Shown piece after piece: positions 2,018-63,745 of a DNA stretch of 64,000 nt; within the stretch, counting starts at the first letter, position 1; every line of letters begins with the position of its first letter. The stretch spans positions 1 through 64,000 of the forward strand of contig JAGUYG010000010.1 of NCBI GenBank assembly GCA_020061465.1. The letters run 5' to 3'. The DNA is from Ignavibacteriales bacterium. Its GTDB lineage: Bacteria; Bacteroidota; Ignavibacteria; Ignavibacteriales; Ignavibacteriaceae. The position numbers and the translations under genes are program-made. A model generated the notes under the pieces. It saw nothing but the letters and a program-made list of their open reading frames with translations, had not been told where the DNA came from and made no database searches.

Positions 2018-2037
2018 TCTGCCTAAAGTCAGATAAA
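2018..2037 (+). repeat. 20-bp micro-palindrome, copy A
   Basis: TCTGCCTAAAGTCAGATAAA, with TCTG/CAGA inverted ends, interrupts methylase-tail copy 1. The same 20 bases occur at 3983-4002 and 31731-31750. The intact tail at 7859/7860 lacks it, so this is an insertion relative to that sequence. Confidence 0.85.
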
Positions 2038-2057
2038 TAGGTGAGGTTGTAGAGTTT

Positions 2058-2102
2058 GTCCCGTAAGGGATTCTGCCGTAGACATTCCTTCGGAACTTCG
2101 GA
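2058..2102 (+). repeat. 45-bp palindromic insert in methylase-tail copy 1
   Basis: The block starts GTCCCGTAAGGGATTCTG and ends CCTTCGGAACTTCGGA. It is inserted exactly where the intact methylase gene runs uninterrupted (between 7879 and 7880). At 45 bp it keeps frame and adds 15 residues. A 44-bp relative occupies the same site in copy 2 (4023-4066). Confidence 0.8.
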
Positions 2103-3807: not shown

Positions 3808-3982
3808 AAAAACTTCTTTTTTTATTGTTAAATATAGTAAAGAATTGAAAGATTTTCAGTAATATTTCTAATCATTTAAGTCTCTCAATGTATTTCAAAT
3901 TTTTCATACTCTTCTTTAGAAATTATTTGCTCTAAGTCTGGAGCAATTTTGCCAGAGGCGGAAAGGTACTTTGACTTCTTCG

Positions 3983-4002
3983 TCTGCCTAAAGTCAGATA
4001 AA
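3983..4002 (+). repeat. 20-bp micro-palindrome, copy B
   Basis: Identical over 20 bases to the element at 2018-2037 (TCTGCCTAAAGTCAGATAAA). It sits between CTTCG and TAGGTG, which are contiguous in the intact methylase gene (7859/7860). Confidence 0.85.
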
Positions 4003-4022
4003 TAGGTGAGGTAGTAGAGTTT

Positions 4023-4066
4023 GTCCCGAAGGGATTCTGCCGTAGACATTCCTTCGGACCTTCGGA
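4023..4066 (+). repeat. 44-bp palindromic insert
   Basis: A relative of 2058-2102 at the same target position, starting GTCCCGAAGGGATTCTG and containing CCTTCGG hairpin halves. It is one base shorter than the copy-1 version, which shifts the frame. Confidence 0.8.
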
Positions 4067-4076
4067 ATAAACCATT

Positions 4077-4096
4077 CCGCCAAAGGACGGACAGGT
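4077..4096 (+). repeat. 20-bp insert with a hairpin core, present only in copy 2
   Basis: CCGCCAAAGGACGGACAGGT separates CCATT from ATGTC. These are contiguous both in the intact methylase gene (7889/7890) and in copy 1. TCCGCC and GG-A-CGGA can pair with one bulge. Confidence 0.75.
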
Positions 4097-4185
4097 ATGT
4101 CTATCTAATCTTTTAAGTGAATTAGATTGCCTATTGATTTTGCTTAATAAAAATTAAAAGCAATTTTACCAATTTTTAGAAAATT

Positions 4186-5955
4186 TTATGTAAATAGAAT
4201 ACAGGGATCATCTTCAGGTGTCATTATTGTAGTTTGTAGTTTTGCCCGGGTAGCACTTACCCGGAAATTATATTTTGCACTAATTCCAGCATTTTCTATT
4301 TTATTACCAAGTATTATTCTATCTGGATTGGATACTATAACTCCATTTTGTTTATGCGGCCAACCTTCAAAAATTATTACTTCATCAAATTGTTTTCCTT
4401 TGGCTTTATGCATATTCATTACGATAACCCCAGTTTCCGGCTTGACGGTTGTAGAAAAATGTTCGCGTATAAATGCTTGACGGACTATTTTAAGTGCATT
4501 ATTATATAAACCATTCTCACGCCAATCTCTTGATAAAGAATCTCTTAATTGAGTGCCCCTGTCTAATAATTTAATATTCTTTGCTTCTTCTGCTACTTGT
4601 TTTAGACGTTTACATGTACCTTGTTCAAGTAAACTACGAACTGCTAACCAATCTTTATCTGGGTTACCAGTTTTAATAAGTGATTTACATATAGTATATC
4701 TGTTAATCATTGGAAGTAAAATACTATTCTTAGGAATTTTTTTATTTAATTTTTCTAATGCCTTACCAATTCTTTCTGCTTCATAAATATCTAATTTTGT
4801 TGGTTTGTCGCCGCCACGACCTAAAAAGAAATTTTTTATCATAAGAATAAATTCAATTGTATCCTCTTCACTCTCATTTGGTTGCAGTAAAAATGCTATT
4901 ATTTCTGCCGATAATACAACACCCTCAACATCAATCATTGCGTGATTATGGATAGAAGGTAAAGATTTACTATCAGAAAGAAGGGCATCAGATACTTGCC
5001 GCATCATTTTTTTTGTGGGTGTTAAAATAGCAACGGACCAATTTTTCTTGTCTAAAGATTTTAATCTCTTAATAGAATTAAGCACTTCATATTTAAGATA
5101 TGAATAAGCTTGATTCTTATTAGGGGGATAAGCTTTTAATACAATTCCCTTATAATTAGCCTTAAAATTTCCAGATATTAAATCATCACCAAAAATTGTT
5201 ATTTCAGTGTCTTTATTCCGATAATTTTCATCACTAATATCAAACTCGGACGGAGTAAAAGTCTGCTTGAAATTATCTATTCTTTCTTGAGATGCACCTA
5301 AGAAATCATAAATACGTTGTTTAGGATCTGCTAGGGCAATTAATTTACTATACAAACCCAATTGAATTACTAATCTCCATTGATCGGAGTTGGTATCTTG
5401 AAATTCATCAAGAATAATTACCGGAAATACACCGGATATTATTCTCCTAATTTTATCACTTCCATGTAGTATATTGCCAGCAAAATGTGCAAATAAGTCA
5501 AAGCAAACCCTCCCTTCTTCAGTAGCTAATCTAAATCTTTCATTGTTAACAATTGCTTTAATTTCTTCCGCGGACTTATCTGAACTTCGTATGGCAGATA
5601 ATATAACAGCTTCACTTGGTGGAGACAAAATCGAAAGCTTTCTAGGAAGTCCTACAAGATACCCATGGGCTTTAATAACTTTCCAAAAGAAAGAATGATA
5701 AGTATCAACAAGAATTGAATTCTTGATTTCTGTTGTAAATTGAATATTTTCTTCAATAGCTTGAATTACTCTTGAAACGGTTGGACGAGCAAAACTAAGA
5801 AATAAAACTTTTTGTGTAGTAGTTAAATAATTGTTTGCAATGTGTGAAGCTTTTAAAATAGAAACGAAGGTTTTTCCGGAACCTGGGCCACCTATTATAA
5901 TAAGATGACCGTCCTTTTGAATAATTTGTTTTTTATTTTCGGAAAGTTCAATCAA
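4186..5955 (-). CDS. gajB: Gabija-type UvrD/Rep-like helicase GajB
   Basis: A 589-residue superfamily 1 helicase/ATPase. Visible motifs: Walker A GGPGSGKT (22-29), motif II DEFQDT (183-188), motif III ALADPKQ (207-213), the late NMHKAKGKQFDEV motif and the final VSATRAK arginine motif. The start is a TTG at 5953-5955 that overlaps the TGA of the ATPase-nuclease gene (TTGA), a sign of translational coupling. An OLD-family ATPase/TOPRIM nuclease paired with a UvrD-like helicase defines Gabija anti-phage defence. In that system GajB is thought to sense DNA ends made during phage growth and activate GajA. The protein is somewhat longer than the Bacillus GajB that I remember at about 500 residues. 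The assignment rests on motifs plus the pairing. Confidence 0.85.
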   Translation of the reverse strand: MIELSENKKQIIQKDGHLIIIGGPGSGKTFVSILKASHIANNYLTTTQKVLFLSFARPTVSRVIQAIEENIQFTTEIKNSILVDTYHSFFWKVIKAHGYLVGLPRKLSILSPPSEAVILSAIRSSDKSAEEIKAIVNNERFRLATEEGRVCFDLFAHFAGNILHGSDKIRRIISGVFPVIILDEFQDTNSDQWRLVIQLGLYSKLIALADPKQRIYDFLGASQERIDNFKQTFTPSEFDISDENYRNKDTEITIFGDDLISGNFKANYKGIVLKAYPPNKNQAYSYLKYEVLNSIKRLKSLDKKNWSVAILTPTKKMMRQVSDALLSDSKSLPSIHNHAMIDVEGVVLSAEIIAFLLQPNESEEDTIEFILMIKNFFLGRGGDKPTKLDIYEAERIGKALEKLNKKIPKNSILLPMINRYTICKSLIKTGNPDKDWLAVRSLLEQGTCKRLKQVAEEAKNIKLLDRGTQLRDSLSRDWRENGLYNNALKIVRQAFIREHFSTTVKPETGVIVMNMHKAKGKQFDEVIIFEGWPHKQNGVIVSNPDRIILGNKIENAGISAKYNFRVSATRAKLQTTIMTPEDDPCILFT

Positions 5956-7727
5956 GGGACACCACCATCATTAGTCGTGTTGTCTGAATTTGCTTCATTT
6001 TTATTGACAAACGGATTAGCATTACAAATATCCTTTAAATCAATGCATAATTGCTTAATCCACTGAGGAATATCATCCAAATTGCATTGAGAAAGAAAAT
6101 CAGCAATTCCCCAATTTCCTTTTGACCATTTAAAATAACTTAATAGGGCATCATCTGCTTGGACCTTAGGATTAGGATATTTTTCTGCTAAGTGTGGAGG
6201 CCAGCTTAAACTATCAATGAATCGTTCCTTAGCAGTAGAAGTAGTATTCTTGAGAACCAATAATTCAAACCCCTTTTCATCGTGCATAAATAATCTTTTT
6301 ACTATAGCTTCAATGTCAGCCTTATCTTGTTCAGTTTGTTTGTCGCAAACCACATAAACATCTTTACCAAGGTCTCTGTATAGACTTGAAAGTTCTTTAA
6401 TTTGGCTTTGACCTTCTGCATCTATAGTGCAAAACCCAAGTGACTCTAAAGGAGAATATGTATTAGATTCTAATTCAGATAATTTACGCGCAACAACTGG
6501 AAGAGCTGAGTTTTCAGTTGCACCTTCGGTAATTATAATTCTTCTAGAAAGAAGTGCTTCACAAAACCTATTTCTAAAATCTTTTCTAAATTTTTTGTGC
6601 TTAATGCTATCTGGCAACTTTATTTTTGATTGTTTGAGTTCACCAAATGAATCACGTTTTAAAATGACGATTTCTTCAATGTCAAATTCTTCAATCACGT
6701 AAGGTGAATGAGAAGTAAATAAAGATTGTGACGAAAGTTGATTTATTTCATGGATAACACGTTTTTGAGTATACGGCGGAATAGCAGTTTCAGGCTCTTC
6801 CATAGCAAAAATTACATTTTGTTTATCTTTAGCTATTTGTGATAACATTGCAAGAACAATAATATTTATTGTTCCAGAGCCTTGTCTGTAATATGGGGCT
6901 GAATGTTCATTTTCACCAGTTGAAACAAATGCCGTAACAATTTTCCTTAAATGCTCACGCGTAAGATTCGAAATTTTTAAGTGTGGTTTTGAGCCCCATT
7001 CCTTTGGAACATATTTTTTAATTGCTTCCTGTATACTTGATAGAACAGTTGATATACCTAATACATTTTCATCTTCAAGTTCAAATGAACTTAAGCGGCT
7101 TATTGTTTTTTCCCATAATTGTGGGCGAATTTCCTTTAATCGTAGGATAATATCTAAGAGGCTGCCATGTTCCAAACTTAATGCCCTTGTGCCAGTCCGT
7201 ATTGATCTTAAATACAAGAAGCCGCAGAATTGTTTATCTCTTTTTGTAAAAGGTACCGGGGAATCACTTTCTAAGAGACTTCTACTGTAATAAGTATTAC
7301 CCTTAAAATCATCATCTTCTTTATCATAGAATCCTTCGAAAGTAATTCTGATTGCTGCCTGAAAGTTAGAATTATCAATTTGAGTAATAGCAGGTTTATC
7401 ATATAAAGAATTATTTATTATATCCCACCACTCAATATAGTCGTAAAACTTATTTTTTTGATCTTCATTTAGGTCGGTAACTGTGACTTCAATAATGATT
7501 TTATATACTTCGCCCTGGTCACTTTGATATTTCCCTAAATAAAAATCATGTTCGTCAACAACAGGTGTTCTATTCAATCTATCAGGACCAAGCACTAAAT
7601 CAATTGCCTCTAATACTGTAGATTTCCCCGTATTATTATCTCCGATAAGTACAACATGTTTTGGGAAAATAAGATGACTTGTTTTTATACCTCGAAAGTT
7701 TTGAATTTGTAATTGGCAGATTTGCAT
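5952..7727 (-). CDS. gajA: Gabija-type OLD-family ATPase/TOPRIM endonuclease GajA
   Basis: A 591-residue protein with an N-terminal ABC/SMC-type ATPase: Walker A GDNNTGKST (29-37), an ABC-signature-like QGSGTINI (282-289), Walker B FAMEEPE (307-313) and switch histidine in TSHSP (338-342). The C-terminal TOPRIM domain shows ITEGATEN (Glu401), IDAEG (435-439), VVCDKQ (Asp462) and a late WSKGNWG. This is the OLD-family class that pairs with a UvrD helicase, i.e. GajA of Gabija, a nucleotide-sensing DNA-nicking enzyme. It starts 59 bp after the methylase gene and overlaps gajB by 4 bp, so the two are cotranscribed. The close size match to GajA makes Gabija more likely than a stand-alone OLD nuclease. 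Confidence 0.87.
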   Translation of the reverse strand: MQICQLQIQNFRGIKTSHLIFPKHVVLIGDNNTGKSTVLEAIDLVLGPDRLNRTPVVDEHDFYLGKYQSDQGEVYKIIIEVTVTDLNEDQKNKFYDYIEWWDIINNSLYDKPAITQIDNSNFQAAIRITFEGFYDKEDDDFKGNTYYSRSLLESDSPVPFTKRDKQFCGFLYLRSIRTGTRALSLEHGSLLDIILRLKEIRPQLWEKTISRLSSFELEDENVLGISTVLSSIQEAIKKYVPKEWGSKPHLKISNLTREHLRKIVTAFVSTGENEHSAPYYRQGSGTINIIVLAMLSQIAKDKQNVIFAMEEPETAIPPYTQKRVIHEINQLSSQSLFTSHSPYVIEEFDIEEIVILKRDSFGELKQSKIKLPDSIKHKKFRKDFRNRFCEALLSRRIIITEGATENSALPVVARKLSELESNTYSPLESLGFCTIDAEGQSQIKELSSLYRDLGKDVYVVCDKQTEQDKADIEAIVKRLFMHDEKGFELLVLKNTTSTAKERFIDSLSWPPHLAEKYPNPKVQADDALLSYFKWSKGNWGIADFLSQCNLDDIPQWIKQLCIDLKDICNANPFVNKNEANSDNTTNDGGVP

Positions 7728-7786
7728 TTAAGATCTCTTATTTTTTAGAAATTATTTTATTTATTTCCGGCTTACCCGCCGCAGCA

Positions 7787-10700
7787 TTACTCAAACTTAA
7801 AATTATTGTATTCTTTTTCCGTTAATGCGAAGGCGGGGTCTATTATTTTTACTTCTTCGTAGGTGAGGTAGTAGAGTTTATAAACCATTATGTCTATCTG
7901 ATCTTCTAATTGCTTGGTGTTGGCTTGGGGATCTTTTTGTTTGCGCTTTAAAATTTCATTTATAATTCTAATAAAATCTTTTTGCCTAGTTTTATCTAAT
8001 TTTTTAATCGGTAGCTGCTTAGCGTCATCAGGATAAAAATGTAATTTCTCTGAAAGAAAGCTAAGAAAATACCAATTGATCAATTTTGAATTTAAGACTG
8101 CAAGCAAATATCTATAATCATAATTAGAACTCTGATTAACACGAAGTTGATTTATGTTTCTTGTGACAGAGGAATGAGAAGCATTTTTTAGAAGAAACCA
8201 TAAAACACAGTTTATTATAGTATGGCTATTGTAGAGATGTTGATTATCTAATGAAAAACGTAATACATCTTTAACAACGTTGATAAACATTATTTTATCG
8301 TTTTCAAATAACTCCGGGAACATTGAATTATAATGTTGATTGGGATGATAATCTAACCATCCATTTTGTTTATGATAATATCTTTCAATGTTTTTGCCTT
8401 CTATAAACGGTTTGTATCCATTTTTATACTCTGTATGAATATAAAAATCTTTTGAAATTGATTTACTTTTGTGATTTAATCTTGCGCCATAAGCGATAAA
8501 ACAAATATCATTAAAGAGTATAGAATCATTTGTAATTTTTTCTTTTAATAAAATATTATCGAGAATTGGTTTAGTTTCAAATCTATTATCCTTTAACTGT
8601 AAAAATGATTGCTGATTTATTTTATGAGATATTATATTTTCCTTATCTAAGTCATTAATTGATGTCAATATTTTAATCGAAGTTTGTTCAACTTTTTTTT
8701 GTTTGGAAATTAGAATTACAATGTTTTTTACAGTTGCTTCGAAAACAAAAAAATCACTTGTATCTAATATTTGGATAATATGATTATTAGTGATAATTTT
8801 TTTTCTTAAAGCAGTGCCATATTTTTGATTTGTGAAAGCATAAGGAACTATAAATACTAATGTTCCACTTTTATTTAACAAAGATAATGAATGGTCTATA
8901 AATGCAATATAAATATCAGTTCTACCAACGCAAGTATCATAATTATTATAGAGATATTCTTTGAGCGATACTTGTAAATTTTCAATATTAATATAGGGTG
9001 GATTTGCAATAACTATATCAAAACCAGTTTTACTATGGAATACCTCTGAGAAGAAAGTTTTGAAATCAAAATCGATTAAATAACCAAAATTCTTTTCAGA
9101 ATTTTCTAATCTACTTTTTATTTGATTATCAATTTCATCTTTTAATATCTTTTTATTTTGGGCACGAGTCTCTATAAAAAATTCTTTTTTAAGGTTTTCA
9201 ATCTTTTCTGAAATCAAGCTTTTCCAATTCTCAGGAAAACCAATAAGTGAATTTCCCCTCACAATCTTATAATCCAAATTTGGCAGCGGTTTTATTTCCT
9301 TAAAATCGTCTTCATCAACTACAAGAGAGAGCCACAAGCGCAGCTTGGCTATTTCAACTGCCCCGGAGTCAATATCTACACCGTATAATGATTTCTCAAT
9401 ACATTCCCGCTTAAATTTATAAATAGTTCTGTTTTTATCTTTTATAAAAATAGACAAGAAATTTCTTGCACTAACTATTTCGTGCATCATTCCAACCGGA
9501 AAAGCACCAGAACCAACTGCCGGATCGCATATTAGAATATCAGCAAGCTTCTCATCAATAAGCTCTGCGTTTTTTCTTATCGTTTCCGGCAGCTTGTGGT
9601 AATAAGTTTCTGTTTCTTTCCCTTTAGATTCTACTACCGCTTCATTTTCGCCAAGCAGTTCACCATAGTTAATAAGAGTTTCAATATCTTCTTTAGGAAT
9701 AATCCCTCTCTCGGTCTCCCCCAAGGGGGGAGAAGATGAGACAACTTGTTCGGTGGAAACTTTTGCCATAGGCATTATCAATTGATAAGCATCCGCCTTC
9801 GCTGAAGCTTCGGCGGACAGGTCTGTTTTATCACTGAATTCAGAAGCGAGATAATTTATTAAGCTTTCCCGGCACATATAATGGACAATTTCTCTCGGAG
9901 TATAATAAACACCGTATTGCTTATTAAATTTGTTTTCTTCTCCTTTCTTACCACTGCTTAATGCTTTATTGTATTCATTAAAATTATCGGGGCGTATAGC
10001 ATTAAATTTTTCATAAGCTTTACCAAGCAGTTCCGGGTCAATAGCAACTTCTTTTTCGAGAGGTTCATCTTCAATTACGGTAAAGTTGTAGCGGTCAAAA
10101 ATATCAAATATTCCATCGCCGGTATCGCCTACTTTTGTTTTGGTGCTGTTGGAAAATAATTCATTAGATAAAATTATATCCGTGTGAACCCAATCGTAAT
10201 TATTTATTGGATCAAAAAGTCCGCCGTTGAGAAAGGGAATTTTGCAATTAAAACGGCTGTAGTAATAATCTTGTCTATCATATCTTAATGCTTCATAGAA
10301 AAGCGGTTCTAAAATATCATTAAAGAAATTTTTATAATCTCCGTGCTTTTTATCCAAAAGCTCTCTTAAAAATTTCTTAGAACCGGTTCCCCAATCAGAA
10401 TCTCTTTCTACTCCAAACCAGCCTTTCTTTTGCAAGAAGTAAAGAAAAACAATCTGCCCTAATAACTTTTTAGAAAAATCAACTGAGTTTACATTCTTAG
10501 AATCAAATTCTGCTTTTAGTTTTGAATCATTCTTTAATACTTTATCAAGTTCAAGTTTGGTACGGATGAAAAGATTACGATATTCAAGAAAAAATTCTCG
10601 TGTAACTGTTTCTATGTTGAAAGCTTGCTCGAGGTCATTAAGTGTTGGACTTGGGATTTCAGTTAATATTTTTTGAAACTGATTTTGAGCAGTATGGCTT

Positions 10701-11170
10701 CTTTCATTTGCGCCAACAAGAAAGGAATATCTTTTAGCGGGTGAAAGTTCAATTTCAATTTTAGTTTTATTTAAATTGAAATCCATTTTAACAAGAGAGA
10801 AACGCCAATCATCATAACCTTCAGTAAAAAACGCAACAAGCGCAGCTTCGTGGTTTCTCTGCTTCAGGTGTCTTGCAATAAAATTTCTTTGTAAAGTTCT
10901 TGCACGTTCTAAGGTAATATCTCTTTTAACATTCACAATAAGTACATCAATCCCGCTTTGCGGAATATCTTGGGTTGTATATTGCCCTACCCGTTTGTAG
11001 GATTTAATTGCATTTCGAAATGATTCGGGAATATAATTCCCAGTCCAGGTTTGGCTTTTAGATTCATCAAGACTATTAAGTAGATTTTTGATGAAGTAAG
11101 TGAACTGAGATTCATCGAAAGGTTTTTCGAAAGTATTTACTACAAGATTTTTGGCTTCAAGTTTATTCAT
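7787..11170 (-). CDS. Eco57I-type adenine methylase/restriction protein (type IIG-like)
   Basis: A 1127-residue protein. Residues about 1-200 form an N-terminal region with SGIDVLIVNVK and an alpha/beta pattern as in Eco57I-type enzymes, a possible nuclease. The N6-adenine methyltransferase core has motif I DPAVGSGAF (about 546-554) and motif IV FDIVIANPPY (about 716-725). The last ~300 residues resemble a TaqI-type target-recognition region. A 30-35 residue low-complexity stretch (about 450-490, with LSAEASAKADA and SSPPLGETERG) corresponds to two palindromic inserts. It probably methylates and restricts DNA together with the PLD-helicase of the same island. The 3' end has been duplicated twice downstream (1968-2130, 3885-4115). 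A separate restriction subunit is not needed if the N-terminal domain is active, which is unproven. Confidence 0.85.
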   Translation of the reverse strand: MNKLEAKNLVVNTFEKPFDESQFTYFIKNLLNSLDESKSQTWTGNYIPESFRNAIKSYKRVGQYTTQDIPQSGIDVLIVNVKRDITLERARTLQRNFIARHLKQRNHEAALVAFFTEGYDDWRFSLVKMDFNLNKTKIEIELSPAKRYSFLVGANERSHTAQNQFQKILTEIPSPTLNDLEQAFNIETVTREFFLEYRNLFIRTKLELDKVLKNDSKLKAEFDSKNVNSVDFSKKLLGQIVFLYFLQKKGWFGVERDSDWGTGSKKFLRELLDKKHGDYKNFFNDILEPLFYEALRYDRQDYYYSRFNCKIPFLNGGLFDPINNYDWVHTDIILSNELFSNSTKTKVGDTGDGIFDIFDRYNFTVIEDEPLEKEVAIDPELLGKAYEKFNAIRPDNFNEYNKALSSGKKGEENKFNKQYGVYYTPREIVHYMCRESLINYLASEFSDKTDLSAEASAKADAYQLIMPMAKVSTEQVVSSSPPLGETERGIIPKEDIETLINYGELLGENEAVVESKGKETETYYHKLPETIRKNAELIDEKLADILICDPAVGSGAFPVGMMHEIVSARNFLSIFIKDKNRTIYKFKRECIEKSLYGVDIDSGAVEIAKLRLWLSLVVDEDDFKEIKPLPNLDYKIVRGNSLIGFPENWKSLISEKIENLKKEFFIETRAQNKKILKDEIDNQIKSRLENSEKNFGYLIDFDFKTFFSEVFHSKTGFDIVIANPPYINIENLQVSLKEYLYNNYDTCVGRTDIYIAFIDHSLSLLNKSGTLVFIVPYAFTNQKYGTALRKKIITNNHIIQILDTSDFFVFEATVKNIVILISKQKKVEQTSIKILTSINDLDKENIISHKINQQSFLQLKDNRFETKPILDNILLKEKITNDSILFNDICFIAYGARLNHKSKSISKDFYIHTEYKNGYKPFIEGKNIERYYHKQNGWLDYHPNQHYNSMFPELFENDKIMFINVVKDVLRFSLDNQHLYNSHTIINCVLWFLLKNASHSSVTRNINQLRVNQSSNYDYRYLLAVLNSKLINWYFLSFLSEKLHFYPDDAKQLPIKKLDKTRQKDFIRIINEILKRKQKDPQANTKQLEDQIDIMVYKLYYLTYEEVKIIDPAFALTEKEYNNFKFE
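9715..9733 (+). repeat. in-frame palindrome inside the methylase gene
   Basis: TCTCCCCC-AAG-GGGGGAGA, a perfect 8-bp-arm hairpin, encodes part of SSPPLGETERG within a linker of the methylase. It resembles the CCTCTCCC-type hairpins inside the helicase gene. Confidence 0.7.
9792..9817 (+). repeat. second in-frame palindrome inside the methylase gene
   Basis: TCCGCC...GGCGGA arms enclose a GAAGCTTC core and encode LSAEASAKADA. It lies 58 bp from the other hairpin, and the two account for a low-complexity insertion before the methylase core. Confidence 0.7.
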
Positions 11171-11188
11171 AAAAATTATTATTGACTT

Positions 11189-11217
11189 AGAATAATTTTG
11201 ACTAATTGTCTTGACAA
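11189..11217 (-). promoter_or_regulatory. putative promoter of the methylase gene
   Basis: Reading leftwards: TTGTCA (11217-11212), a 17-bp spacer, then TATTCT (11194-11189), 18 bp before the ATG at 11170. The -35 overlaps the small palindrome ATTGTC-TT-GACAAT (plus strand), a possible regulator site. This suggests the methylase-gajA-gajB stretch has its own promoter. Confidence 0.35.
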
Positions 11218-11247
11218 TGTAAAGGCACTAATTTATTTTGGGATTGA

Positions 11248-11327
11248 AATTAAGCCTACTCTATTACGAACGTCGACTTCAAGTCGTTTTCCGAGTAATC
11301 GGAATAGTTTTAGGGCGGGCTTAATTT
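11248..11327 (+). repeat. 80-bp inverted-repeat element at the 3' end of the DUF3800 gene
   Basis: Ends are AAATTAAGCC (11248-11257) and GGCTTAATTT (11318-11327), a perfect 10-bp inverted repeat. Inside are GACTTCAAGTC and CCGAGTAATCGG hairpins, giving a multi-stem fold. The right end supplies the last codons and TAA of the DUF3800 gene (read on the minus strand). It could also act as a terminator for that gene. Confidence 0.65.
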
Positions 11328-12125
11328 GTTTTCCGTCGTTAGTTTATTTTGATGATTATAATAGTGTTTATTTCCCTCGTATTTAGAACTATCATACAAA
11401 TCTATTATCAACGAAATTTTATCTTCCAAAAAATTGTAATATCTAATATCACCGCGTTCAAACACACGCTGTACCGCCCAACATAAATAATCGGAAATTG
11501 TTAATAAAGGTTCGGTAGTAGGATATTGGACATTAAATGCAATATCTGTTATAAAATCCTTTTCGGGTTTATTTTTTTTAAATCTTTTCTGAGCAGTTTC
11601 AATGGCTATCATTAGGTTGGTATTTTTTGTTGATTTGCCGAGCTGGGATACATTTAAGATTAACTTACCGCCGATTTCAAATTTATTCTTAATTAGATGT
11701 GAGAACAGGTCCGCATAAAATTCAGATTCATTGGAATTATGTTTGTTAGCAAAAATTTCATAAATTTTTCTGCCAACAACTGCTTCAAAACTAAGGTCAA
11801 TTGATTTAATAAATTTGAAAAACTTTTCTCTCACCTCAGGCACATTATCTTTAGCGTGGAAATAGAAACTATCTTTTTCAATCTTTTTACGGACACTCGG
11901 AACGTCTTTTAAATACTCATCATTTTCAATTTCTTTTTGAGGTTCGATTATTTTTGTGCGGATTGGAAGTAAGGATTCTCTGAATTTTACCATACCAAGG
12001 ATAAAGCTTAGGCTAACACCTTCTACTTTGCCAACAGAAGGGATTTTACCTTTACCGAAAAAAGTTGTATCGCCGGCTTCATCTAAAAACCTATGATAGA
12101 ATTCGTTGGATTTATTTTTACTCAT
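11310..12125 (-). CDS. DUF3800 domain protein
   Basis: A 271-residue soluble protein opening with YHRFLDEAGDTTFF, the N-terminal FLDE(S/A)GD signature of the DUF3800 family, proposed to have an RNase H-like fold. It also has the conserved late segment ISDYLCWAVQRVFERGD (about 212-228). DUF3800 genes are frequent in defence islands and prophages but lack a firm biochemical role. Here it lies between higA and the methylase, 139 bp upstream of the latter. Its last six residues (NKLSPP) and stop codon come from the inverted-repeat element at 11248-11327, so the native C-terminus was probably replaced or extended. Acidic residues in the N-terminal motif (Asp, Glu, Asp) could be catalytic, which is inference. 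Confidence 0.83.
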   Translation of the reverse strand: MSKNKSNEFYHRFLDEAGDTTFFGKGKIPSVGKVEGVSLSFILGMVKFRESLLPIRTKIIEPQKEIENDEYLKDVPSVRKKIEKDSFYFHAKDNVPEVREKFFKFIKSIDLSFEAVVGRKIYEIFANKHNSNESEFYADLFSHLIKNKFEIGGKLILNVSQLGKSTKNTNLMIAIETAQKRFKKNKPEKDFITDIAFNVQYPTTEPLLTISDYLCWAVQRVFERGDIRYYNFLEDKISLIIDLYDSSKYEGNKHYYNHQNKLTTENKLSPP

Positions 12126-12179
12126 TTATGTAAATATAATTTTTTACTTCTATAAATTTTTTTTCAGCATTTAATTTTT

Positions 12180-13286
12180 TCAGGTATATCTTTCTCTCAA
12201 ATCATTGTGCCAGGATGGTGGAATTTTTTCATCGTGTTGAAGTCTGCCAACTACAATACCTGGGTGGATATTTATTTGTTTCGCAAACTTCAAAATATCT
12301 TGTTTATAAAATGCTCCCCGTTCAACAAAATCTTCATATTCAGGCGCGGGGACTAAATTATCAGAAGCAAATTCATTCGCTTCATTCTCAAGAGATTTTA
12401 CCACAAAATCAACGTCATCGCTTTCTATATAAACTTGCTGTTTGCTGTGCAATAAAATGTGACCAAGTTCGTGGAATAAGCTGAACCAGAACATATCAGC
12501 CCATCTACCCCTAATAGTTATCATTAAAACAGCTTTATTTTTGTTGAGCCAAAAAGTAGCACCGTGAGCACAAGTTTTCGGAAGATGCGGAACAATAATA
12601 AGCGCGATGCCAGCATCAGAAAATTTATTTTTTAATTCTTTTTGAAATTTCTCTGGCAACTGAGTTGTCATTCCTCTTAAAGTTGGTAACAGCTTGTAAA
12701 GTTTTTCGGAGTCAAATGGTTTGGTATCAATTTTATACGCTTCAATTTCACCAATCCGCAGCCAGGAAATAACAGCTTCTGAAGATACTTTATGATTTTT
12801 ATTTATGTTTTGTCTGAAAAACGGCTGATATCTTTTCACGTTATCCAAATTCAAAAGAGAAGTAACTCCCAAGAATTTTTGCAGTTCTTCTACTTTCTCA
12901 ATTGGTTTAGATTTCTGTTCAACGTAACCATATTTAGAAAGTTCATTATAACAAAATTTAGATATTAATGGAGTTTGTTTTTTTCTTCTTTCTATCTCTT
13001 TCTGTTCTTGCAATTTTGCTAAAGTAAGCCGGTACTCAGCTTCAAGCCCAATCCAAATATGTGCAGGAACGCTAGTAACTTTTTCAAGCTGCAATGCTGT
13101 GTCTGGAGTGATTGCTTTATCACCTCTAAAAATAGCGCTAAGCTTAGCAGCTGGTCTGTTCATCCTTCTGGCTAATTCATCCTTTCCCATTCCCAAGTCT
13201 TCTAAAACTTCTACAAGAAATTCACCCGGTGGAATAGGAAGATCGCTATATATTTCTTCCCGAAGGGATATACTATTAGTCATCAT
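12180..13286 (-). CDS. higA: HigA-type antitoxin fused to an ImmA/IrrE-like peptidase
   Basis: A 368-residue protein. Residues about 15-80 form an XRE helix-turn-helix of HigA type (PPGEFLVEVLEDLGMGKDEL, then RRMNRPAAKLSAIFRG). The C-terminal half is an ImmA/IrrE-like metallopeptidase with WFSLFHELGHILLH (HExxH near 272-276) and a downstream ENEANEFASD glutamate segment. This long architecture is a known HigA variant, and the peptidase could remove a partner or itself under stress. It starts inside the toxin gene (11-bp overlap), so translation is coupled. The HTH probably binds the paired CTTTACC-N5-GGTAAAG sites at the operon promoter. Lies within the defence island between the helicase and the DUF3800 gene. 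Confidence 0.88.
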   Translation of the reverse strand: MMTNSISLREEIYSDLPIPPGEFLVEVLEDLGMGKDELARRMNRPAAKLSAIFRGDKAITPDTALQLEKVTSVPAHIWIGLEAEYRLTLAKLQEQKEIERRKKQTPLISKFCYNELSKYGYVEQKSKPIEKVEELQKFLGVTSLLNLDNVKRYQPFFRQNINKNHKVSSEAVISWLRIGEIEAYKIDTKPFDSEKLYKLLPTLRGMTTQLPEKFQKELKNKFSDAGIALIIVPHLPKTCAHGATFWLNKNKAVLMITIRGRWADMFWFSLFHELGHILLHSKQQVYIESDDVDFVVKSLENEANEFASDNLVPAPEYEDFVERGAFYKQDILKFAKQINIHPGIVVGRLQHDEKIPPSWHNDLRERYT

Positions 13287-13578
13287 AATGTTTGCTTACC
13301 TCCTCAATTCTTGCTATTTCAAGATTTTCACCGTGAAGTGTAAAAATCAATCTATAAAATCCGGTTAATATTATTGACCATTCTCCTTTTCTATCACCTT
13401 TTAAAGGGTGGCATCTGAGAGTGCGGATTGATTTTAATTCTTCAATGTTTCTCGATTTCTTTATAATATTAATTCTTTGGATATATTTTCTACCGACTTG
13501 CTCACCATAAGCTTTAAAAGCTTCGTTTGAGAATTCATACTGTTTTTGGAGTGATTTTGTTTTAAACCGGATTTCCAA
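13276..13578 (-). CDS. higB: HigB/RelE-family toxin
   Basis: A 100-residue basic protein with the RelE/HigB fold signature: KSLQKQYEFSNEAFKAYG near the start, LRCHPLKGDRKGEWSIIL in the middle and a terminal strand EIARIEEVSKHYDD. HigB toxins cut mRNA on the ribosome. The toxin-first order and overlap with the HTH gene are typical of higBA. A clear promoter (TTGACA, 17 bp, TATATT) framed by two inverted-repeat operators lies 50-105 bp upstream. Plausible role: stabilise or guard the surrounding defence island. Confidence 0.88.
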   Translation of the reverse strand: MEIRFKTKSLQKQYEFSNEAFKAYGEQVGRKYIQRINIIKKSRNIEELKSIRTLRCHPLKGDRKGEWSIILTGFYRLIFTLHGENLEIARIEEVSKHYDD

Positions 13579-13606
13579 ATATTTTCCCTAAAAGAGTGAT
13601 TAAATA

Positions 13607-13682
13607 CTTTACCTTTAGGGTAAAGCAAATATAACTATACGCTATGAGTATGTCAATAATAATCTTTACCCCTTAGGTAAAG
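13607..13682 (-). promoter_or_regulatory. higBA promoter with paired operators
   Basis: Two near-identical inverted repeats, CTTTACC-TTTAG-GGTAAAG (13607-13625) and CTTTACC-CCTTA-GGTAAAG (13664-13682), are centred 57 bp apart. Between them on the minus strand is TTGACA (13656-13651), exactly 17 bp, then TATATT (13633-13628). The -10 also reads as TATATTTG, the Bacteroidota TAnnTTTG form. One operator lies just upstream of the -35 and the other just downstream of the -10, a layout suited to repression by HigA bound at both sites. Confidence 0.8.
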
Positions 13683-13724
13683 GCATAAAAACAACTATTC
13701 TAAAACCGTTAAAACGGTTGAAAA

Positions 13725-16700
13725 TTATTTTAGGTTATCACTGTTCCCACGACTGAAGTCGTGGGTTACTAAATACTCTGATAAAATTACTTCTCTTGGA
13801 CCAAAAATATCTGCCGCAGAATGGCTTATATGTTCTGTGAAAAATTCCTCGGGAATATTTGTTTTTATTTTCGATAATATTTTAATCGGGTCTTCGATTC
13901 CTATAAGAGCCTGAGCAACATTTTTAGTTGTCTGTTTCGGTAAAGCTCCATCTTCAAGAAGTTTTATTACCTTTTGAATATAGTGATCATCATCTTCAGT
14001 AAAACCTTGATAATTTTTTATTTGTTTTGATCTTAGAATTCGCAAAATTTTTGTTACGTTATCTCTACCACCTCGGGTTGTTGTTTCGGATCCATATTCT
14101 TGTGTTGCTTCTTTGAAAGCCGCTTTATTCTTCTCTAAAAAGGTGTAAAATTCTCTTTCGATTTTTTCCCGCTTGGTATCGAGCTTTGATTCAAGAATTT
14201 TGGCAGATTCAAGAAAATCTAATTCATGCGTTACTACTTCAACCTCACCCTCGGTCCCTCTCCTTGGCAAGGAGAGGGAAGAAATGAAGAATTTGTGAAG
14301 CTTGCTTTTACGGAAATAAGTAAGTAGAGAGCCCTCACCCCGCCCCTCTCCCAAAGGGAGAGGACTTTTTTTAGCAGAACGGGCTTTCTTCGGAAGATGT
14401 TTTATCTTTGAAAAAAGATCAACATTGTTATCGCGTATGTCCCGGATAATTTCAAGATACTTCAATTCGCTTTCAACTTCCTCATCTTCTCCGGTGATTG
14501 TTTTTTTAGAAGTTAATCTCCGGAATAAATCGTGAGATTTAATTTCTTCACCTTCAGTTAATAAACGTGCATCGTTACCAAGCATTTCAATAAAAGCGTG
14601 AATTTTTGCCTCAGCAGCTTCTTTCAGCTTTATAAGGTCATTGCTTTTGATAGTAGGAAAGAAATTATATGTATAAATTCTATCAAACTTAGTATCAACA
14701 CGGTTTACTCTTCCTACCCTTTGAATTAAACGAGTAGGATTCCAGGGAATATCATAATTGATTACAATATTAGATTGATGAAGATTAACACCTTCAGAAA
14801 GCACTTCTGTTGAAACTAAAATCTTAATATCATTTTTAGGTCTTCTAACTTTAGCATCGAAGTTATTAATAATTTTTTCCTTAACGTTTGCAGTAGATTG
14901 ACCAGAAAAAGCCAAAACGACTTTCCCAAATTTTTTCTGAAGCTCTCTTTCAAGATATTCGGCAGTATCCTTTGACTCAGTAAAGATTATCAGTTTAGTT
15001 TCTTTTAATACAGAATTTGTTTTCTCCGTGAGGAGTCCTTCGGACAATAAATGAATCAGCTCGTCAAGCTTGGGATCAGAATTAATTTCATTCCAAAGAG
15101 ATTGTATTTCCTTTAAGGTGTTGAGATCAGATTCCAGGTTATTTATTAAATCGGAAGTGAAGTCAGATGCTTTATATTCATCTGCTTTATCTTCCTCAAT
15201 TAATTTTGCAATTAAATCATATTCTTCGTCTTCCAAAAATTCAAAGATTTTGCCTATATATTTTTTGCTAATAAAAACAGAGCCATTACCTTTAGCGTAA
15301 GCTTTTATGAATGCTGTATATGATCCGATAAAATTATTTAATGAATTCTTAAATGCAAAGAAACTGCTTTCAAGCCTTTTGATTAAAAGGATTTTCATTA
15401 AGCTTTTTAGATTTCTTTGAGAGAGTTCTTGAATCTGGGTTAATCCTTTAGTATCGCGTAAATATAATAGCGGTGAATATCTTGAATATGTAAAAGCCGG
15501 ATTGGTTAATGCTTTAATTGTATAATCGAATGCGTAATTTATTTTTTTATCAAATTGGTATAGAATAGGTCTTGGATCTTCAACATCCGGAAATTTCAAT
15601 CCTTGTTTAACCAAATCGTCTTTGAAATATTTATCAACCTCGTTTCTGGTTCTTCTTACCATAAGGTATTTGAGGACTTTATCGCGAATCTGTTTTGCAT
15701 TGTCTCTTACAATCGCTAAATATTCATCTTTGTTAGTTTGTCTATCAAGTCCTTTTAATCTGTTCTCTAACAATTTAAAGAATGCATCAAGCTTTTTAAT
15801 GTTAGGTATTGTGCTGTTTCTTCCGCTTTGGAACAGTTTAATCTGACTTAATATATCTGACGGTGTATTATTAAGCGGTGTTGCCGAAACAAGAATAACT
15901 CTTTTACCTCTGCAGATTTGAGCTAGAAGCTCGTAAGTTATATTCGATTCGGAACGGAAACGATGAGCTTCATCAATAAAGACATTCTTATATTTATCTG
16001 TCCCTCGCTTAATAATTTTTTCAAGCTTTCCGATGGATTCAAAATCAGCAGCGATCTTAAAATCCGAGAAGATATTTTTCCATGAACCGGGATTATCTTC
16101 ATCCAATAAAACAGGCGGAGCTATAATGAGATTATATCCATCAAGTTCATTTGCAAGTAATGCCGAAATAAAAGTTTTACCAAGACCCACTACATCAGAA
16201 ATAAATACACCACCGTAAGCTTCCAGCTTAGCTTTTGCATCTTTAACCGCTTCAGCTTGATATTCTAATTCTATGAAATTAATTGGGGTATATCTTTTGG
16301 TAAGCTTTTCTTTATCAACACTGATCTTTTCTTGGAAATATTCGTACAGAAATTTTAAGTAAAGCTCATAAGGGGTGATAATATCATTCAACCAGGTTTT
16401 TGTGTGAACTGTTTCGATATACTCTTTGGATATATCTACAGCATCTTTCCATAAGTCTTCAAATTTTGCCAGGGCGAATTTTACATCAGAAGAATTCTTT
16501 AATTCAACGTTGAATTCTCGATTGGCGATTAGACCGGATTCAGAAAAATTACTGGAACCGGTTATTACTCTACCGTAATCTCTATCTGTTTCTTTAAAGC
16601 GTAAAATGTATACTTTAGCGTGAATATCTTTGGAAGGATAAGCCCGGATTTCAAGTTTGCCGGATTGAATAAATTCTATAAATTTTTTAACTCCGAGCTC

Positions 16701-17039
16701 TACATCAAAAGAATCTTCGGATTTTTCTAATTCATTAACTACTGCTGAAGAAAAAGTAGTACGGGTATTTTGGTTAGTTTCGAAATCAATTGTAGTTTGT
16801 TCCCGTAGGGACAGGTTCGATTCTTCGATTATTTCATAAGTTTTCTTGTCAATGTTTAATCCTACTAAGATTCTTATCTTTTCAATTGATTCAAAAGATT
16901 GGTATAGGCGAAAGAAACCACTTGTACGGAAATAACCAACAAGTATGTCGAAATACTGCCCATCCTTAAGGGTTCTTAGAAATCTATCTAATAGTGTCGA
17001 ACCGGGTTCGTTAGTGAAGAATGTTAAGTCCGATTGCAT
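13725..17039 (-). CDS. PLD-type nuclease fused to a SNF2-like helicase
   Basis: A 1104-residue protein. The N-terminal domain is a phospholipase-D-family nuclease with a single HxK...GSSN motif (His140, Lys142, Gly161-Asn164). A superfamily 2 helicase follows: Walker A DVVGLGKT (282-289), DEAH (356-359), SATP (385-388), then a HELICc domain with VSTEVLSEGVNLHQ and QRVGRVNR. Such PLD-helicases often accompany Eco57I-type methylases as a restriction-translocase partner. DISARM is unlikely because no DUF1998 (DrmB) gene is present. Near residues 893-935 a Pro/Gly/Arg-rich stretch (SPLPLGEGRGEG, LSLPRRGTEGE) is encoded by two hairpin elements, and the last ~13 residues (THDFSRGNS) by a third. These look like in-frame insertions in a flexible linker and tail. 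Confidence 0.88.
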   Translation of the reverse strand: MQSDLTFFTNEPGSTLLDRFLRTLKDGQYFDILVGYFRTSGFFRLYQSFESIEKIRILVGLNIDKKTYEIIEESNLSLREQTTIDFETNQNTRTTFSSAVVNELEKSEDSFDVELGVKKFIEFIQSGKLEIRAYPSKDIHAKVYILRFKETDRDYGRVITGSSNFSESGLIANREFNVELKNSSDVKFALAKFEDLWKDAVDISKEYIETVHTKTWLNDIITPYELYLKFLYEYFQEKISVDKEKLTKRYTPINFIELEYQAEAVKDAKAKLEAYGGVFISDVVGLGKTFISALLANELDGYNLIIAPPVLLDEDNPGSWKNIFSDFKIAADFESIGKLEKIIKRGTDKYKNVFIDEAHRFRSESNITYELLAQICRGKRVILVSATPLNNTPSDILSQIKLFQSGRNSTIPNIKKLDAFFKLLENRLKGLDRQTNKDEYLAIVRDNAKQIRDKVLKYLMVRRTRNEVDKYFKDDLVKQGLKFPDVEDPRPILYQFDKKINYAFDYTIKALTNPAFTYSRYSPLLYLRDTKGLTQIQELSQRNLKSLMKILLIKRLESSFFAFKNSLNNFIGSYTAFIKAYAKGNGSVFISKKYIGKIFEFLEDEEYDLIAKLIEEDKADEYKASDFTSDLINNLESDLNTLKEIQSLWNEINSDPKLDELIHLLSEGLLTEKTNSVLKETKLIIFTESKDTAEYLERELQKKFGKVVLAFSGQSTANVKEKIINNFDAKVRRPKNDIKILVSTEVLSEGVNLHQSNIVINYDIPWNPTRLIQRVGRVNRVDTKFDRIYTYNFFPTIKSNDLIKLKEAAEAKIHAFIEMLGNDARLLTEGEEIKSHDLFRRLTSKKTITGEDEEVESELKYLEIIRDIRDNNVDLFSKIKHLPKKARSAKKSPLPLGEGRGEGSLLTYFRKSKLHKFFISSLSLPRRGTEGEVEVVTHELDFLESAKILESKLDTKREKIEREFYTFLEKNKAAFKEATQEYGSETTTRGGRDNVTKILRILRSKQIKNYQGFTEDDDHYIQKVIKLLEDGALPKQTTKNVAQALIGIEDPIKILSKIKTNIPEEFFTEHISHSAADIFGPREVILSEYLVTHDFSRGNSDNLK
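13746..13765 (+). repeat. hairpin element in the last codons of the helicase gene
   Basis: CCCACGACT-GA-AGTCGTGGG, a perfect 9-bp-arm inverted repeat, encodes THDFSRG at the helicase C-terminus, 21 bp before the end of the gene. It could also serve as a terminator stem. Confidence 0.7.
14255..14279 (+). repeat. in-frame hairpin element in the helicase gene (1)
   Basis: TCCCTCTCCTTG-G-CAAGGAGAGGGA, perfect 12-bp arms, preceded by CCTCACCCTCGG. It encodes the LSLPRRGTEGE part of the helicase linker. Confidence 0.75.
14345..14363 (+). repeat. in-frame hairpin element in the helicase gene (2)
   Basis: CCTCTCCC-AAA-GGGAGAGG, perfect 8-bp arms, preceded by CCTCACCCCGC. It is a relative of 14255-14279 in the same orientation 90 bp away and encodes SPLPLGEGRGEG. 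Confidence 0.75.
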
Positions 17040-24577: not shown

Positions 24578-24801
24578 TATAACTCACGTTACGCAAAAAA
24601 TGAATGGCATGATCAATTGAGGATTTTATATTGTAATAGAGCTATACGAATTCGTTAATTCGATTTATATGAAATTATTTGAGATTACGGGCGTAAAGAC
24701 GGGGCATGCCCCGTCTTTACAACTGTATAACATGACAAATCTTATAGCTAGGAAACGGACTCAAACTATTTTTTTCAAAATTCTGCGTAAAGTGAGTTAT
24801 A
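24578..24801. mobile_element. MITE-like element of 224 bp with 18-bp terminal inverted repeats
   Basis: Left end TATAACTCACGTTACGCA (24578-24595); right end TGCGTAAAGTGAGTTATA (24784-24801). They are inverted copies with one mismatch. The interior has no coding potential and holds the perfect palindrome at 24693-24720. No target duplication is clear. Size, inverted ends and lack of a gene fit a miniature inverted-repeat transposable element. Confidence 0.6.
24693..24720. repeat. perfect 28-bp palindrome
   Basis: GTAAAGACGGGGCA followed at once by its exact complement TGCCCCGTCTTTAC. It is GC-rich in AT-rich surroundings and lies inside the MITE-like element. It has the form of dispersed bacterial palindromic repeats. 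Confidence 0.85.
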
Positions 24802-31715: not shown

Positions 31716-31763
31716 GCTGGTGTAGCTCAGTCTGCCTAAAGTCAGATAAATTGGTAGAGCAGC
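31716..31763 (+). pseudogene. partial tRNA-Thr copy split by the 20-bp micro-palindrome
   Basis: GCTGGTGTAGCTCAG (31716-31730) plus TTGGTAGAGCAGC (31751-31763) repeat the first 28 bases of the intact tRNA 26 bp downstream. The 20-bp element TCTGCCTAAAGTCAGATAAA lies at 31731-31750 in the D-loop. The copy ends after the D-arm, so it cannot be a functional tRNA. Confidence 0.85.
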
Positions 31764-31788
31764 TTATAATTAATAATGAAAGTTTTTT

Positions 31789-31861
31789 GCTGGTGTAGCT
31801 CAGTTGGTAGAGCAGCGCACTTGTAATGCGCCGGTCGGCGGTTCGAATCCGTTCACCAGCT
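31789..31861 (+). tRNA. tRNA-Thr (anticodon TGT)
   Basis: Complete cloverleaf: acceptor GCTGGTG/CACCAGC with discriminator T, D-arm GCTC...GAGC, anticodon stem GCGCA/TGCGC around loop CTTGTAA (anticodon TGT), and T-arm GGCGG-TTCGAAT-CCGTT. CCA is not encoded. A terminator follows. Confidence 0.95.
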
Positions 31862-31871
31862 CACAAAAACG

Positions 31872-62272: not shown

Positions 62273-63745
62273 TTGACTATATTTAATGTTGAAAACGGAG
62301 CCGACGGCATACAGATCAGCGGGGCTTCAAATTACAATGAAATTTCTTTCAGCCGGATTGCATTTAACAGAAGAAACGGAGTTACAATTCTTGACAACAG
62401 TAAGTTTAACTTAATCACACAATACTCTTTTTTCAATAATGATGAATTAGGAATCGACCTAAATGGTGACGGTGTAACGCCAAACGACGAAAACGATTTG
62501 GATGATGGGCCAAATGATCTGTTGAACTTTCCGGTAATTACTAATGTTGAAGAAAACACATCAGGTGAAATATTTAATATTTCAGGTGATGCGCTGCCCG
62601 GTTCTGCTGTAGAATTATATCTTGCAGACTACCAGACAGGAATTTCCGGTCATGGTGAAGGGAAACAATATCTTGGATCGGTTATCGCAAATCAATCGGG
62701 CAAATTCGAATTAAATTCTGTTCCATTATGCCCGGGTTCGGTAATAACTGCAACAGCTTCAATAAACCACACTACATCTGAATTTGCGGCGAACTACAAG
62801 TATTATGGCTTGTACCCAAATATTTCTATTTCGGATAAAAGCTATGATTTCGGTGAAGTATATAATTTTTCTTCCTCATCGTGGGATTCTTTATTGATAC
62901 TAAATACCGGTGAGGCAGTGCTGGGAATTCAAAAAATTTCATTCGCTAAAGATGACTCAACATTTTTTATCGATTCTACTTTTCAATTTCCCTTATATAT
63001 AATGCCGGGTGGTTATGAATTCATTAAAATTATATTCCAACCGAAAAGGAAAGGAAAATTAGTTGATACACTTTTTGTTAACTCCAATGACCCTGACGAA
63101 CCGATACTAATGGTAAGGCTTGAAGGATATAGTAAAAACAATCCTCCGTCTCCATTTAATTTAACCTCACCGGAAAATAATGCATCTATTGATAGTTCTA
63201 TTATTACCTTTATTTGGAATGCTAGTACAGATATCGATGGCGATGTGGTAACTTATGGTTTATATCTTAAGGGAAACGAAATCGACACTTTAATCAGTCC
63301 GATAACAAATAATAACTTTCAGTTGAATGTGAATGATTTGAATATTTCTGGATCGCTAATTTGTTCATGGAATGTTCATGCAACAGACGGCATCGACACT
63401 ACATTTAGCAGCGAAACTAGGAACATCACAATAAGTACAAAGGCTGATATGGACAGGATTCCGGATAAATACTCACTTGAACAGAACTATCCTAATCCTT
63501 TTAATTCAACAACGATTATTGAATATTCGATTCCGGAACAAAGCAGAGTTACATTAGACATATTCGATGTATTGGGAAATAAATTGCTCTCACTTATTGA
63601 TGAAGAGAAGGATGCCGGTTATTATAAAGTTGATTTTTCCGTAAGATCCTTTGGAAATGCTTCAGCTTTTTCAAGCGGAGTATATTTGTACAGGCTCAAA
63701 GCCGGAAAATATATGCGTACTTTCAAGATGATTCTATTGAGGTGA
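62273..63745 (+). pseudogene. 5'-truncated T9SS-exported protein
   Basis: A 490-codon frame that begins inside a right-handed beta-helix (NGADGIQISGASNYNEISFSRI, NNDELGIDLNGDGVTPNDENDLDDGPNDLLNFPVI). It has no signal peptide and only a TTG as nominal start; a stop lies 12 bp upstream. The rest is coherent: an Ig-like/ASPM-SPD-2-Hydin-type module (LILNTGEAVLGIQKISF, FQPKRKGKLVDTLFVNSNDPDEP), a fibronectin-like module and a type IX sorting domain (QNYPNPFNSTTIIEYSIP). The protein therefore lost its 5' part and could not be exported by Sec as it stands. Confidence 0.7.

Follow-up and report, generated by a model that had tools for sequence, protein, structure and literature searches.

Miniature hairpin insertions in decayed methylase tails and across the genome of an Ignavibacteria-class bacterium

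The window analysed here, 64,000 nucleotides in contig C60 of an incompletely assembled genome (4.2 Mb, 122 contigs), contains an intact type IIG restriction-methylase gene (7787-11170) and two decayed remnants of a methylase-like C-terminal tail, and all three tails are on the minus strand. The tail of the intact gene (7787-7930) is uninserted, copy 1 (1999-2120) carries two hairpin blocks, and copy 2 (3885-4115) carries four. A Gabija pair, with GajB at 4186-5955 and GajA at 5952-7727, is flanked by these tails, and the locus is thus a defence island whose modules are separated by tail remnants. The island (4186-17039) comprises the Gabija pair, the type IIG restriction-methylase, a PLD-helicase with a DrmD-like match and a PD-Lambda-2_B-like protein. 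Isolated type IIG methylase C-terminal tails are also found in related genomes (L088:12078-12221 in relative G263, and L091 in relative G009), and these, together with the isolated tails at 1999-2120 and 3885-4115, may be what is left after modules integrated at the tail.

The blocks of copy 2, all written on the plus strand, are block 1 (3984-4003, 20 bp, T20 family; TCTGCCTAAAGTCAGATAAA written from 3983), block 2 (4023-4066, 44 bp), block 3 (4077-4096, a 20-bp hairpin with a CAGG tail; TCCGCCAAAGGACGGACAGG from 4076) and block 4 (3948-3966, a hairpin with an AAGG tail; TTTGCCAGAGGCGGAAAGG). Block 2 folds as a single long hairpin (MFE -16.6 kcal/mol as RNA), and in blocks 1, 3 and 4 the fold is a hairpin followed by a 4-nt tail. 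The blocks are too short to code, in line with the earlier remark that units of this size cannot encode a mobility enzyme. When blocks 1-3 are removed, copy 2 consists of ACTTCTTCGT, AGGTGAGGTAGTAGAGTTT, ATAAACCATT and ATGTCTATCTAATCTTTTAA joined end to end, with 2 mismatches in a 59-bp core against positions 7851-7909 of the intact gene. The earlier note had described copy 2 as collinear with the intact tail except for blocks of 20, 44 and 20 bp, inserted at points equivalent to 7859/7860, 7879/7880 and 7889/7890, and both the collinearity and the insertion points were reproduced, save for a 1-nt ambiguity (T) at the junction of block 1, beyond which target duplication is absent. It was also correct that copy 1 has block 1 (2019-2038, plus strand) and block 2 (2058-2102, plus strand, a 45-bp variant with one additional base within the hairpin) and lacks block 3. 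The three blocks named in that note are real, but block 4 had been overlooked; it was recognised by comparing copy 2 with the tail of G263, and without it the reading ...EEVKVIAPDLEQIISKEEYEKF is regained.

The methylase orthologue of G263 (57% at the amino acid level) has none of the blocks, and the isolated tails in G263 and G009 also lack all of them; the uninserted tail is therefore the ancestral form, and the longer versions are not. Freed of its blocks, copy 2 reads ...MVYKLYYLTYEEVKVIAPDLEQIISKEEYEKF, near ...MVYKLYNLTYEEVKIIDPNIEQLISKEEYERF in G263. Copy 2 is therefore a homologous tail, with an end closer to that of G263 than to that of the local intact gene, and not a fresh, simple duplicate of 7787-7930. 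None of blocks 2-4 is itself a dispersed repeat: block 3 has no further exact or near copy outside copy 2 in the whole genome at up to 3 mismatches, and blocks 2 and 4 have none beyond copies 1 and 2 in the approximately one third of the genome that was searched.

The expectation that the blocks would recur elsewhere in the genome, which thus fails for blocks 2-4, holds for block 1 and its structural family. As a 19-bp sequence, block 1 has five exact occurrences genome-wide, too many for chance, and three of the five lie within pseudo-tRNA copies that belong to two tRNA loci. First, a truncated tRNA-Thr copy (31716-31763, plus strand) has an exact copy of block 1 (31732-31751, plus strand) in its D-loop, and the intact tRNA-Thr (tgt) gene at 31789-31862 on the same strand represents the uninserted state. 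Second, contig C12 has a pair of degenerate tRNA-Gly copies, each with an exact or near block 1 in the D-loop, and the adjoining intact tRNA genes, as at the tRNA-Thr locus, are without the block. The exact 20-mer also occurs once in a relative within the same family, Ignavibacteria bacterium GWC2_36_12 (G306; MGZZ01000139.1, 18,972 bases). Structural relatives of block 1 are found in pseudo-copies of tRNA-Asp (CCTGTTTGTAGGCAGGTAAA) and tRNA-Met (TCCACCTAAAGTTGGATAAA), and the family, with about a dozen loci in the genome, has a common architecture of a covarying 4-bp stem, a mismatch, a CTAAAG-type loop and a TAAA tail. When loci were picked solely by the loop CTAAAG and the tail TAAA, 14 were obtained, and 7 of them had a 4-bp outer stem (TCTG/CAGA, CCTG/CAGG, TCCA/TGGA or CCTA/TAGG). 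These four stem sequences differ with matching changes on both sides, an observation that carries less weight if the copies share ancestry, as they may. The same seven loci have a constant Y.Y (pyrimidine) mismatch adjoining the loop, and six of them are preceded by G. A TAAA tail is not enriched after 4-bp stems in general, and only the CTAAAG-loop subset is convincing.

Pseudo-fragments were found near 11 of the 44 tRNA genes examined, several of them with inserts in or beside the D, anticodon, variable and T loops, and none of the intact tRNA genes looked at had an insert. In some cases, at tRNA-Asn and tRNA-Gly, 9-11 bp were replaced instead of a clean insertion. Degenerate tRNA copies bearing hairpin inserts, in many cases arranged in tandem, were seen at 31716-31862 of the window and in other stretches of the genome (L022:3875-4107, L023:5930-6523, L070:8350-8960, L125 and L116).

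Beyond the tRNA loci, about 1.38 Mb of stretches (approximately one third of the genome) was read directly, and pattern searches were run on the whole genome. By comparing repeats within the genome, 43 distinct filled positions were identified in the 1.38 Mb, with widely varying insert lengths and sequences and with a mode at exactly 18 bp (16 of the 43). No filled position was found in the samples of G306 (0.26 Mb) or G263 (0.24 Mb), where repeats are present, compared with 18 in 0.61 Mb of the genome's own sequence. The main 18-mer pattern, TCCNNNGGATCSNNNSGA, gave 323 strand-hits here versus 0-12 in 40 relatives, with palindrome-like copies scoring on both strands, and the reversed-pattern control gave 0 matches. 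GC-rich palindromic words are strongly over-represented in 1.07 Mb, led by GGATCGTTCCGA and GGATCCTTYGGA. On viral contigs there was a single 18-mer, which is likely due to chance.

The 18-mers go into a CNTN^NANG-like site and leave no target duplication. Among 39 non-redundant copies, C was found at -4 in 59%, T at -2 in 82% (p=2e-10) and A at +2 in 72% (p=7e-7); pairing of the flanks that would extend the hairpin was not seen, and the two sides were independent. No perfect palindrome was present among the 39 copies, versus about 7 expected from random arm pairing, a test that is weakened if the copies descend from a few masters. In addition, a 23-bp hairpin was found at the exact centre of a palindrome, between GGGGCA and TGCCCC, in three places and in both orientations. 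Palindromes of the type GAGACGGGGCATGCCCCGTCTC, some with the central 23-bp hairpin, lie at 24693-24720 of the window and at L072:15066, L128:1670 and L146:5688. In L015, L019, L025, L037, L040 and L063, an intergenic repeat of greater length (gagtcttctct...aaaaaggtattttcat...) has 18- and 27-bp inserts in varied combinations, so that filled and empty states form a natural series. Taken together, we conclude with high confidence that the blocks represent genuine insertions of miniature hairpin repeats specific to this lineage, and their size of 18-44 bases makes them among the smallest mobile-looking elements known. The earlier description of nested hairpin-forming blocks, dropped in at exact points without clear target duplication, is thereby supported and extended: they are precise insertions, nested or sequential, within a genome-wide population.

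The position of the inserts within and beside tRNA loops would fit an RNA-mediated process, in which a cleaved tRNA or mRNA takes up a hairpin RNA and a reverse transcriptase converts the product back into DNA. However, the genome has one RVT_1 gene and it is interrupted, which makes such a route unlikely, and the 18-mers occur on both strands of intergenic DNA and of repeats. We regard this process as quite improbable.

Several 18-mers lie in frame inside genes. In the YacP/NYN protein, SERSFG follows HFDGF, and this exact six-residue insert is absent in 19 of 19 aligned relatives. In T9SS C-terminal sorting domains (PF18962), four tails have an 18-bp insert at one site (one of the four with 7 more residues), and 12 have a 4-residue linker and are empty; one of the filled sites is in ORF 62273-63745 of the window, where the element TCCGTAAGATCCTTTGGA (63638-63655, plus strand) adds SVRSFG in frame to the sorting domain. 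The Cas1 gene (L138:4581-5675) also has an in-frame SERSFG 18-mer, in a region too variable across relatives to prove insertion; YacP, the clean case, and Cas1 were the two gene cases compared with relatives. Phase 0 is the usual position of the insert in real genes and yields linkers of the SxGSxG or SERSFG type, and the 18-mer TCCAAAGGATCGTTCCGA, as read from its sequence, is stop-free in all six frames. These in-frame cases make the likeness to Rickettsia palindromic elements, drawn in the earlier note, better than was first assumed.

Since phase 0 predominates in genes, selection at the peptide level is likely, and one could suppose that the in-gene 18-mers are SxGSxG coding linkers that arose independently, with only the intergenic palindromes being repeats. 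The same nucleotide 18-mer is, however, also found at non-coding sites and in other phases, in many cases with like flanks, and we consider independent origin very improbable. The gene cases also bear on the reading that the long forms are ancestral and that 7787-7930 and the other empty sites are deletions. One pair alone cannot tell insertion from deletion, and no support for deletion was found; the block-free methylase and isolated tails of the relatives, the lack of the YacP insert in every aligned relative and the majority of T9SS tails being empty all stand against it. This reading, almost certainly wrong, was rejected on the empty state of the relatives' methylase tails and YacP.

The genome has ten Y1_Tnp transposase genes, and Y1 is the only class of candidate enzyme found here with a known action on such hairpins. 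Linkage to a RAYT-type transposase, a check proposed in the earlier note, was sought and not found. None of the ten is clearly linked to the 18-mers or 20-mers: neither was found in a REP arrangement beside any of them, and two of the ten have 18-mers at a distance of about 500 bp or less, little above chance. TAAA is the commonest 4-nt loop among the GC-rich hairpins in the sample, and C-TAAA-G loops are found in palindromes adjoining some Y1 genes. Two of the ten genes, at L102 (C1) and L103 (C7), are flanked by their own REP family of AACCTCCAACGTC / AACCTCCGAGGTT hairpins, each thus being a RAYT with its own REP family.

While the pattern of mobility is itself strongly supported, the mechanism can be proposed only in conditional terms. 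The hairpin itself would be the substrate, the moving form would be a folded single-stranded DNA, and a RAYT/IS200-type Y1 (HUH) transposase acting in trans would carry out the transfer. Insertions have hit sites that tolerate them: methylase tails and tandem tRNA copies that are already broken, repeats between genes, other palindromes, and genes where the reading frame is kept. Selection would then retain them only if the copy is dispensable or the site can accept a short SxGSxG-like linker. That mobile hairpin repeats of about 18-44 bp have proliferated in this Ignavibacteria-class lineage, moved in trans by Y1, is a proposal to which we give about even chances; for the Y1 mechanism, its enzyme part, our confidence is even at best and perhaps somewhat lower. 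Y1 enzymes typically require a short asymmetric target, and the symmetric flank motif of the 18-mers is a poor fit with that habit. Given the diversity of insert lengths and sequences, a single enzyme might also fall short as an explanation.

The main rival to the Y1 mechanism is templated insertion, in which template switching during repair or replication would copy a short hairpin donor into broken or nicked DNA, with no dedicated transposase. Such copying could account for the blunt joins without target duplication, the broad spread of insert lengths and sequences, the replacement of 9-11 bp in tRNA-Asn and tRNA-Gly, and the dominance of the triloops GAA and AAA among the GC-rich hairpins. 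The sharp 18-bp mode, however, points to a specific machinery, and the defined symmetric flank preference, the T9SS paralogues hit at the same site and the restriction to one lineage also weigh against it, so that we think it unlikely to be the correct account. A further reading, speculative and also rather unlikely, is that an undescribed enzyme inserts folded 18-bp imperfect hairpins at symmetric CNTN^NANG sites without target duplication, a non-coding element thereby writing stop-free six-residue linkers of the SxGSxG type into proteins. If this is true, no smaller mobile element that alters proteins would be known than the 18-mers.

How elements of about 20 bp, far too short for a gene, move between sites is a question also raised by the small dispersed repeats (SDRs) of cyanobacteria. 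Here, one chromosome offers many clean filled/empty pairs with a defined length and flank motif, on both strands, and with nested and in-frame cases, and these pairs, together with only a handful of candidate enzymes, make the question of movement testable. The elements also show one way in which proteins can acquire short flexible linkers.

Compared with known small repeats, the elements described here are best read as of the SDR/REP kind, the SDRs being compared by secondary description. SDRs appear as "very small mobile repeated elements" where Elhai et al. 2008 is cited in PMC3116915 and PMC3733652, and a passage of PMC2884548 presents them as dispersed repeats of about 20 bp whose mechanism of movement is hypothetical. 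Similarly, a repeat of about 20 bp is present here in many copies (323 strand-hits for the 18-mer, and about a dozen loci for block 1), and filled and empty sites indicate insertion; the differences are the phylum, the in-frame 18-mers and the TAAA-tailed hairpins in pseudo-tRNAs. REP/REPIN elements are described as going with RAYT (Y1) transposases in a passage of PMC3116915, and REPs as tagged GTAG or CGTC in one of PMC3733652. Our elements resemble them in being short imperfect hairpins without target duplication, in a genome that has Y1 transposases and, beside two of these, true REP families, but they are shorter, are mostly single units with no link to a Y1 gene found, and have no GTAG/CGTC tag, the 20-mers ending in TAAA and the 18-mers being tagless. 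With Rickettsia palindromic elements they share a palindromic structure and in-frame positions within genes (here YacP and the T9SS tails), whereas those elements are about 100-150 bp long and ours are 18 bp with no CGTC end. Finally, the GC clusters and double-hairpin elements of fungal mitochondria are short GC-rich palindromes in AT-rich DNA that are optional between alleles, and the present elements are likewise dispersed, GC-rich, short and optional; the GC clusters, however, belong to organelle DNA, and certain of them produce a short target duplication, unlike the elements here.
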